From a bacterium (GTDB lineage Bacteria > Patescibacteriota > Saccharimonadia > Saccharimonadales > UBA4665), in the NCBI GenBank assembly GCA_021789195.1, contig JAJYJU010000002.1, positions 1 through 45,249 of the forward strand: a stretch of DNA of 45,249 nucleotides, written 5' to 3'. The position numbers and the translations under genes were made by a program. Below the pieces are notes generated by a model. It was not told the DNA's origin and did no database searches. It saw only the letters and a list, made by a program, of their open reading frames with translations. This document shows positions 19,795 to 22,417 of the stretch, piece by piece. Within the stretch, counting starts at the first letter, position 1, and every line of letters begins with the position of its first letter.

Positions 19795-20361
19795 CTATTC
19801 TTTTGGTATTGCCTCAAATACCGATTTAAGCAGAGGATATACCTTCTTGCCGGCACCACGGACGGATTGAACTGGCCTATTAACTAACTGCTGGAACTTC
19901 CCAGGATCAATCAAACCGTCTTCTCCCATACAATCTCTTCTTATAATAGTTTCACAGGTACTTACTAGTCTTGGTGCAAAACCATAATCTTCGCAAATCT
20001 TCCTAAAGCTATCTATTGATATAGAGACTTTTTCCGGTAGCCTGACTGGTTCTTCTTGATGGTCCTCAATAGATTGCTGTACCATGCCTGTTGCATGGCC
20101 TAAAAATACAGACAATTGCTTTCTATCGCCGGAGTTACTAACTATTACTTCTATAGCATAATTTCTAAGTGGTTCTAAATCAGCCGAAACAGCTTCAGCG
20201 GGAATTACCCCATATAAATCAAAGTTGCAGAGCTCAGAAAGCATGCTACACATAGCTCTAGCCTTGTCTGGATTAGGCAGAACTTCTTCAATTTTCGCAT
20301 AGAGGTTTTCAAAACCCTGCACACGAAAAGTCTCAGGCGTACTAACCTCTGAAGGGTCCAT
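19795..20361 (-). CDS. Hypothetical protein
   Basis: Coherent ORF; likely start MDPSEVSTPETF at 20361 with a -10-like TATTAT 6 nt upstream. Confidence 0.6.
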   Translation of the reverse strand: MDPSEVSTPETFRVQGFENLYAKIEEVLPNPDKARAMCSMLSELCNFDLYGVIPAEAVSADLEPLRNYAIEVIVSNSGDRKQLSVFLGHATGMVQQSIEDHQEEPVRLPEKVSISIDSFRKICEDYGFAPRLVSTCETIIRRDCMGEDGLIDPGKFQQLVNRPVQSVRGAGKKVYPLLKSVFEAIPKE

Positions 20362-20429
20362 AGCAATATAATACAACAAAAGCATTAGAAATACAAGAGT
20401 AAGAGAAGAGAAGACGGTATAAAAAACAA

Positions 20430-20449
20430 AAAGACCTATTGCTAGGTCT
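20430..20449 (-). terminator. Intrinsic terminator (minus orientation)
   Basis: AGACCTA-GCAA-TAGGTCT followed on the minus strand by TTTTGTTTTTT. Confidence 0.75.
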
Positions 20450-20555
20450 CTTTGTTGGCTAAGTCATTTCTGGCTTAGTCTGTCATCTTTCGATGGCAAC
20501 CACCTCAACGATGGTACTTATTAGTTTAGCAGTCCCGGGTTTTATTGCAAGCCCG
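20430..20555 (-). ncRNA. Candidate small RNA or leader/attenuator unit
   Basis: No ORF >60 aa. Minus-strand hairpins CATC-GAAA-GATG (GNRA loop) and CTAAG-CCAGAAATGA-CTTAG, ending in the intrinsic terminator. 5' end uncertain. Confidence 0.35.
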
Positions 20556-20567
20556 CGAAAAATAATC

Positions 20568-20676
20568 CGTGTATAACTATGTGGATAAGACATCTATATA
20601 ATCTGTTAAAGGACAAATAATTTTGTAATAAAAAATAGATTTACCGCTTATGCTTATCCACATATATTGTGGATAA
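20568..20676. promoter_or_regulatory. DnaA-box cluster with AT-rich core (candidate oriC or DnaA-titration/regulatory site)
   Basis: cgtgtataa 20568-20576 (near match), tgtggataa 20580-20588, ttatccaca 20654-20662, tgtggataa 20668-20676 (three perfect), flanking about 65 bp of very AT-rich DNA. Confidence 0.6.
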
Positions 20677-20679
20677 ATA

Positions 20680-20756
20680 TGGTGCCCCGGGATGGATTCG
20701 AACCAACGACCTTAGGCTTAGAAGTCCTCTGCTCTATCCAGCTGAGCTACCGGGGC
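20680..20756 (-). tRNA. tRNA-Arg(TCT)
   Basis: GCCCCGG TA GCTC...CTTCTAA anticodon loop...TTCGAAT...CCGGGGC ACCA; anticodon stem has mismatches. Confidence 0.88.
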
Positions 20757-20761
20757 GTAAG

Positions 20762-20836
20762 TGGTGCGGGTGGGGAGAGTCGAACTCCCGTCTCCAACTT
20801 GGAAGGTTGGAATAATGGCCGTTATACCACACCCGC
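20762..20836 (-). tRNA. tRNA-Gly(TCC)
   Basis: GCGGGTG...CCAAC CTTCCAA GTTGG...GGGAG TTCGACT CTCCC CACCCGC ACCA. Confidence 0.95.
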
Positions 20837-20893: not shown

Positions 20894-22417
20894 TTATATA
20901 TCGTTAAGGATCGTTATGTGTGCACCAAGTGAATTCAAGCGACTAGCCAAGTCTTCATAGCCGCGGTTAATTGTATAAACGTTTCTAAGCATAGATGTGC
21001 CAGGCGCCGCAAGCATGCCAATTAGTAACATGACAGCTGGTCTGATGCCGCTGGGGCTGACTAGATCAGCCGGTTTAAATTTAGTCGGACCGTTTACAAA
21101 AACACGGTGCGGGTCGGCCAACTCTAAATCAACGCCAATTTTTTTCATCTCGGTGAACATTAAGGCTCTATCCTCATAAATCCAGTCGTGTATTAGAGTG
21201 CGGCCTTTAGCTACTGCTGCAATAGGCACAAAGTAGGGCAAATGGTCGATGTTAAGACCGGGAAATACGTTAGGGTGAATTTTTTCTTTCGGAGCAATCA
21301 AGCTACCGTTATGTTTATGTATATGCAGATCAACTAACTCTGTATAACCGTTATCTGCCTTAAAGGGCTTAGACATGTCGTACTTAAGTCCCATCTTCTC
21401 TAATTTAAGTAATTCCAGTTCCAAGAACTCTATAGGAGCACGTTTAATGGTTATTGCCGAATCAGTAGTGACAGCTGCTGCTATAAAAGTCATTGCTTCT
21501 ACCGGATCTTCACTGGGTGAGTAGGTAACGTTACGGTTAATTTCTTTTAAGCCGTGTACGACTAAGGTGGATGTGCCAATTCCTTCAACCTTTACGCCAA
21601 GCTTGATTAGATAAAGGCACAAGTCTTGAACCGCATAATTAGCGCTAGCCATTTTAATCACAGATACTCCAGGTGTTAGCGCTGCCGCCATTAGTACGTT
21701 CTCAGTTGTTGTATCTCCGGATTCGTAAAGCACTACGTTGCGAGAAGGTAATTTTAGCTTGGTGCGCACAATGTAGTGTTCGGTAACGGTCTTAACGTCC
21801 ACGCCGTACTCTTCAAGAGCATAAAGGTGAGGAAGTACTGTTCGCCTCCCTAGTTCGCAACCTCCGGCGTAGGGAATAACAAACTCTTTTGAACGGTGTA
21901 TCAAAGGCCCGATAAACATTAAGACACTCCTAGTTCGCTTAGCTGCCTCATGATCAATTGAGGCTAGATTTAAGCGATCAGGTACTTTTATCACCAGATC
22001 ATTAACATTTTGCCACTTAATATTGACACCAATGCTTAACAAAACTTCTACAATACGGTTCACTTCTTCGATGCGAGCGACATTCTTTAGTGTTGTAGTT
22101 CCCTTGTTAAGTAAACTTGCGCAAAGTAAGCTTACGGCTGCATTTTTGCTAGTCTTAAGAGCAATTTCACCCTTAAGCTCGTGCCCACCATCTATTTTTA
22201 AATTAACTGCACTGCCAGTGATGCTAATAATCTGCTTATTTAAAACCTCGCTTATACGACCAAGTGTTTCAAGACTAAGATTCTGTCTGCCGTGCTCCAT
22301 TCGATTAACGGCTGATTGGGATGTAGATAATTGCTTGGCAAACTCGCTTTGAGTCATTCCACGCTGTTGTCGGATTTGAGATATTAACTGGCCTATCTGT
22401 TGGTTAGTTGAAGGCAT
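20894..22417 (-). CDS. murA: XRE-family HTH domain fused to UDP-N-acetylglucosamine 1-carboxyvinyltransferase (MurA-like)
   Basis: N-term IGQLISQIRQQRGMTQSEFAKQLSTSQSAVNRMEHGRQNLSLETLGRIS (XRE HTH) then LKIDGGHELKGEIALKTSKNAAVSLLCASLL...YAGGCELGRRTVLPHL (MurA catalytic-Cys loop). Confidence 0.9.
   Translation of the reverse strand: MPSTNQQIGQLISQIRQQRGMTQSEFAKQLSTSQSAVNRMEHGRQNLSLETLGRISEVLNKQIISITGSAVNLKIDGGHELKGEIALKTSKNAAVSLLCASLLNKGTTTLKNVARIEEVNRIVEVLLSIGVNIKWQNVNDLVIKVPDRLNLASIDHEAAKRTRSVLMFIGPLIHRSKEFVIPYAGGCELGRRTVLPHLYALEEYGVDVKTVTEHYIVRTKLKLPSRNVVLYESGDTTTENVLMAAALTPGVSVIKMASANYAVQDLCLYLIKLGVKVEGIGTSTLVVHGLKEINRNVTYSPSEDPVEAMTFIAAAVTTDSAITIKRAPIEFLELELLKLEKMGLKYDMSKPFKADNGYTELVDLHIHKHNGSLIAPKEKIHPNVFPGLNIDHLPYFVPIAAVAKGRTLIHDWIYEDRALMFTEMKKIGVDLELADPHRVFVNGPTKFKPADLVSPSGIRPAVMLLIGMLAAPGTSMLRNVYTINRGYEDLASRLNSLGAHITILNDI

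Follow-up and report, generated by a model that had tools for sequence, protein, structure and literature searches.

A structured small RNA conserved across the Saccharibacteria carries a double DnaA box at its predicted promoter, suggesting control by the replication initiator

What purpose does a compact cluster of DnaA boxes serve in a Saccharibacteria genome when it lies between a pair of tRNA genes and a small RNA-like unit? Such a cluster occurs in the 45-kb stretch of DNA analysed here (hereafter the window), which is part of a draft assembly of 672 kb in 43 contigs with about 95% completeness. The initial annotation had placed in it three perfect boxes, TTATCCACA, and one near match, TTATACACG, and a sequence search confirmed all four positions (Table 1), with exactly three copies of TTATCCACA in the whole window. 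Its judgement that three perfect 9-mers so close together are improbable was likewise borne out: because the entire assembly holds only 8 copies of TTATCCACA, three of which belong to this cluster, their occurrence within 97 bp is far beyond chance. The exact inverted repeat at 20654-20676 and the AT-rich spacer of about 65 bp (25% G+C, against 41% for the window) were also as described.

Comparison with relatives, which had been proposed as a check, gave a divided answer: the boxes are conserved, and the fourth box, with the inverted repeat that it completes, and the sequence of the spacer are not. Among the 19 genus members searched, the perfect inverted repeat is present in this genome alone, and it was accordingly rejected as the key element of the locus. 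In the five nearest relatives the spacer has 26-35% G+C, its sequence varying between boxes that are retained. Another perfect inverted repeat of DnaA boxes, TTATCCACACAAATGTGGATAA, was noticed in a genome of another family (L069, G036:C38:1688-1709).

Read on the minus strand from the tRNA-Arg gene, the locus consists of the farther box or boxes, the AT-rich unconserved spacer, TTATCCACA-TAG-TTATACACG, 17 bp, TTGCAA, 16 bp, TAAACT, and the RNA. The boxes starting at 20580 and 20568 thus form a direct pair just upstream of a predicted promoter, an arrangement that had escaped the initial annotation. When the six nearest genomes were aligned, the boxes, the -35 and -10 elements and the RNA stood out as conserved blocks amid variable DNA. 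A scan for TTGACA-type promoters did not list the small-RNA promoter because its -35 element is TTGCAA. As to the surroundings, the window contains 8 tRNA genes, mostly scattered singletons. A MurA-type enolpyruvyl transferase with an N-terminal Cro/C1 helix-turn-helix domain is encoded at 20894-22417, with high-scoring full-length or near full-length matches across the relatives searched. A 196-aa open reading frame at 19795-20385, between the RNA and a tRNA-His gene, has no Pfam match, and its slot is occupied in relatives by different open reading frames or by none.

Table 1. Features of the box cluster and the small-RNA locus, in the order in which they are read on the minus strand.
Feature	Position	Strand	Remarks
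tRNA-Gly (TCC), upstream neighbour	20762..20836	-	
tRNA-Arg (TCT), upstream neighbour	20680..20756	-	
Fourth DnaA box	20668..20676	-	Inverted repeat with 20654-20662; within the genus, this genome only
Third DnaA box	20654..20662	+	Opposite orientation, adjoins tRNA-Arg; perfect in the five nearest relatives (G001, G002, G005, G010, G015)
DnaA box, first half of double box, TTATCCACA	20580..20588	-	3-bp gap to second half
DnaA box, second half of double box, TTATACACG	20568..20576	-	Ends 17 bp upstream of -35; position fixed in 15/15 RNA-bearing genus genomes
-35 element TTGCAA	20545..20550	-	TTGCAT in most relatives; 16-bp spacer to -10
-10 element TAAACT with upstream TG (TGCTAAACT)	20523..20528	-	Conserved in nearest relatives
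Small RNA, about 95 nt, four hairpins	20421..20515	-	Predicted 5' end ACCAUCGUUGAGG at about 20515; covarying structure
Intrinsic terminator of small RNA	20425..20456	-	14-bp stem, GCAA loop, T run; terminator scan

The RNA-like unit beside the boxes proved to be a conserved structured RNA. Its sequence starts with ACCATCGTTGAGGTGG and ends in the terminator hairpin and T run, its fold has a z-score of -6.07, and most of its hairpins are capped by GNRA-type loops, as read from the alignments. Covariation was assessed on 20 distinct sequences and 36 pairs, in which standard pairs make up 95.2% of the paired cells and compensatory change on both sides is seen in 30 of the 36 pairs; none of 500 shuffles reached this level of pairing, and no slid register came close. 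A search of Rfam 15 returned no family at the gathering score and no credible match below it, and the literature searched contained no report of this small RNA or of its link to the boxes. The small RNA is therefore a new, uncatalogued structured RNA family with its own terminator. Two other identities were considered and rejected: a small protein, as the genus alignment (inspected by eye) retains neither a start codon nor a reading frame throughout, and a cis-acting leader, as the downstream genes vary among genera and the next gene sometimes lies on the opposite strand. The same variation of neighbouring genes favours a stand-alone RNA, presumably transcribed from about 20515 over about 95 nt and probably acting in trans. 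As regards possible targets, the RNA showed no consistent pairing with the dnaA leader, the match in 6 of 7 genomes not exceeding that of shuffled sequences; the resemblance of a conserved GAGGUG in the RNA to a Shine-Dalgarno sequence is no more than a lead.

A covariance model recovered the small RNA in 15 of the 19 genus genomes, and a refined model extended its range to other genera and families within the class. Outside the genus, after chance matches had been removed by inspection, 31 copies in 26 genera keep the 5' hairpin motif, so that the RNA recurs in at least 26 other Saccharibacteria genera. Low-scoring matches in f35, f38 and some other genomes were set aside, being attributed to chance terminators or to tRNA-Leu arms; in L189 and L195 the model weakly matches tRNA-Leu arms (CUACCUUGAGGUGGUAG), hairpin 1 resembling an anticodon arm, which is probably coincidence. 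Sixteen public records matched the RNA, 15 of them titled as Candidatus Saccharibacteria or bacterium MAGs and one as Chlamydiae; this last record (L126, CAJCIR010000034.1) carries the Saccharibacteria small RNA and is probably mislabelled or a mixed bin.

Boxes and RNA are associated well beyond the genome under study. A box lies within 110 bp upstream of the RNA in all 15 genus copies and in 13 of the 26 other genera, 7 of which have a perfect TTATCCACA, whereas the adjacent 550 bp, taken as a control, have 0.027 box per 110 bp, corresponding to a chance of about 3%. For the other genera the enrichment over this control has a P of about 2e-14 with kinship ignored; the tests treat genomes as independent, and within the genus their probabilities thus make the association look stronger than it is. 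Dinucleotide shuffles of the same upstream segments yielded a mean of 0.9 of 46 segments with a box against 29 observed, and 0.06 with a perfect box against 15 observed. The geometry is also retained. In 15 of 15 genus copies the boxes of the best pair are 2 or 3 bp apart and the pair begins at position -74 or -75 relative to the hairpin motif, the first-half box being decayed in some members (G007, G009), and the same layout is found at -75/-76 in three other genera (G071, G056 and G037, the last from another family). The pair pattern TTWTCCACA-N2..5-TWWDNCACA has only 14 matches in 149 genomes: 10 directly upstream of the RNA, 1 at dnaA and 3 seemingly unrelated, two of which look like chance in coding DNA. 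About half of the other RNA-bearing genera have no recognisable box, and there DnaA control may be partial or replaced. Taken as a whole, the distribution suggests a conserved, class-wide small RNA under the control of the replication initiator DnaA.

Chromatin immunoprecipitation (ChIP-seq) in E. coli has shown that DnaA prefers in vivo pairs of boxes spaced by 2 or 3 bp, with one weak partner tolerated (PMC11317965). The pair at the small-RNA promoter has this arrangement, being in direct orientation with a 2- or 3-bp gap, and its position relative to the promoter is conserved. We consider it likely that the cluster serves the promoter of a new family of trans-acting small RNAs and that DnaA controls this promoter, probably by activating it. 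By this account, a DnaA dimer would bind the direct pair TTATCCACA-N3-TTATACACG (20588 to 20568), and the farther box or boxes adjoining the tRNA-Arg gene would assist it. Sitting 17 bp upstream of the -35 element, on boxes whose centres lie about 57 and 69 bp ahead of the predicted start, DnaA would most likely activate transcription. The level of the four-hairpin, self-terminated RNA would thereby be coupled to DnaA-ATP, and hence to the replication cycle, and the RNA would then act in trans on some target. The computed features of this scheme are the boxes with their conserved spacing and position, the covarying RNA structure and the terminator, whereas the identity of the bound protein as DnaA, the sign of its effect, transcription as such and action in trans are inferred and are put forward as probable.

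That sign could be the reverse. DnaA represses several promoters in other bacteria, and it might do so here; we hold this to be rather unlikely, since the pair lies wholly upstream of the -35 element at a near-constant gap of 17 bp, a layout typical of activators, and in this genome no box overlaps the -35 or the -10. The fixed distance and the lack of overlap suggest activation.

The cluster might instead matter for DnaA itself. Sites of the datA or DARS kind are recognised by an IHF/Fis-dependent change in the nucleotide state of DnaA, a biochemical property. Several boxes are concentrated at the present locus, and the DARS2 site of E. coli also has a double box with 3-bp spacing (PMC11317965), so that a titration or reactivation site could be envisaged that serves chiefly to hold or recharge DnaA, the RNA promoter being incidental. 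This appears improbable, because the distance from box to -35 is fixed across genera despite differing neighbouring genes, and because beyond the genus the RNA is retained in the company of one or two boxes, not of a larger cluster.

Given that the assignment to DnaA rests on the motif, another regulator with a DnaA-box-like motif might bind the boxes and regulate the RNA. Motif, spacing and variant spectrum nevertheless match DnaA usage, including that at the relatives' own dnaA loci, where the variants TTTTCCACA, TTATACACA and TTATGCACA present at the RNA locus also surround dnaA, making a different protein highly improbable. The DnaA of the relatives is an ordinary one, which aligns over its full length with solved DnaA and keeps the KDHTT motif of domain IV.

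In favour of the lead reading of the initial annotation, a chromosomal oriC unlinked from dnaA, stand the four DnaA boxes packed into 109 bp around an AT-rich spacer of 65 bp and the lack of dnaA in the assembly. The gene was not found in 11 of the 18 other genus members either. However, dnaN lacks its first 177 residues, being truncated at base 1 of contig C20 (G000:C20:1-558), and in G002 the gene is broken in the same way at base 1 of its contig; the 12 of 19 genomes without dnaA are, moreover, precisely those without yidC, which adjoins dnaA in relatives and is expected to be essential. The missing dnaA region is therefore an assembly gap, and a true loss of dnaA in the genus was rejected on the same grounds: the dnaA-dnaN locus exists in the genus and is merely missing from this assembly. 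The whole yidC-rnpA-dnaA-dnaN segment is missing from 12 of the 19 genus drafts, and assemblies seem to fail repeatedly at the origin. Where dnaA is present in the genus, boxes lie on both sides of it (for example TAATCCACA, TTATACACA and TTTTCCACA upstream and TTATNCACA downstream), and it is on a different contig from the RNA locus in every case. GC skew, which had been proposed as a check, was tested in the best-assembled sister genome (G013), where it stays below zero as far as dnaA (83 kb), is close to zero between about 80 and 110 kb and becomes clearly positive beyond; on the contig with the RNA locus it is positive along nearly all 91 kb, without a switch at the locus (33.6 kb). In the 45-kb window the skew is flat at the boxes, again with no switch. 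Boxes and an AT-rich spacer are present at the cluster, but the spacer sequence is not conserved; and although the dnaA-dnaN intergenic boxes of Saccharibacteria relatives include the same variants, those origins are linked to dnaA, dnaN, rnpA and yidC, and in G013 to the change in skew sign, whereas the RNA locus is not. That the cluster is an unlinked oriC is scarcely credible. The first interpretation of the locus was accordingly right in part: the origin falls, and its alternative of a DnaA-regulated promoter is strongly supported by the constant position of the boxes ahead of the RNA promoter.

DnaA-regulated promoters and cell-cycle non-coding RNAs (ncRNAs) are both kinds of element already known (PMC11317965, PMC5988900, PMC8959179). 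The double boxes of the E. coli DnaA regulon, such as those upstream of purH, polA and DARS2 (PMC11317965), resemble the pair described here: two 9-mers in direct orientation, of which one is perfect and the other degenerate, are separated by 2 or 3 bp and lie upstream of a promoter. The present pair differs in preceding a conserved small RNA instead of a protein gene, and, the dnaA locus apart, this genus has hardly any other such pair. Caulobacter has cell-cycle ncRNAs predicted or shown to be wired to DnaA, CtrA or GcrA (PMC5988900, PMC8959179), which share with the present case the idea of an ncRNA under a cell-cycle regulator; they belong to a different phylum, with no sequence or structural relation established to the Saccharibacteria RNA, whose linkage to the boxes is, by comparison, conserved over many genera. 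Neither the literature searched nor Rfam contained a class-spanning family of structured RNAs whose promoter bears a conserved double DnaA box.

In its role as a transcription factor, DnaA is known to regulate a small number of protein-coding genes. If our reading is correct, a structured small RNA with a double-DnaA-box promoter in many genera would represent a new kind of DnaA target. It is conceivable, though we advance this only tentatively, that this class-wide RNA is the main target of the DnaA regulon in Saccharibacteria, coupling the replication of these epibionts to post-transcriptional control. A DnaA-controlled RNA of this kind would also open a first way into studying the tie between replication and gene control in these reduced, host-dependent bacteria, in which few regulators are understood.
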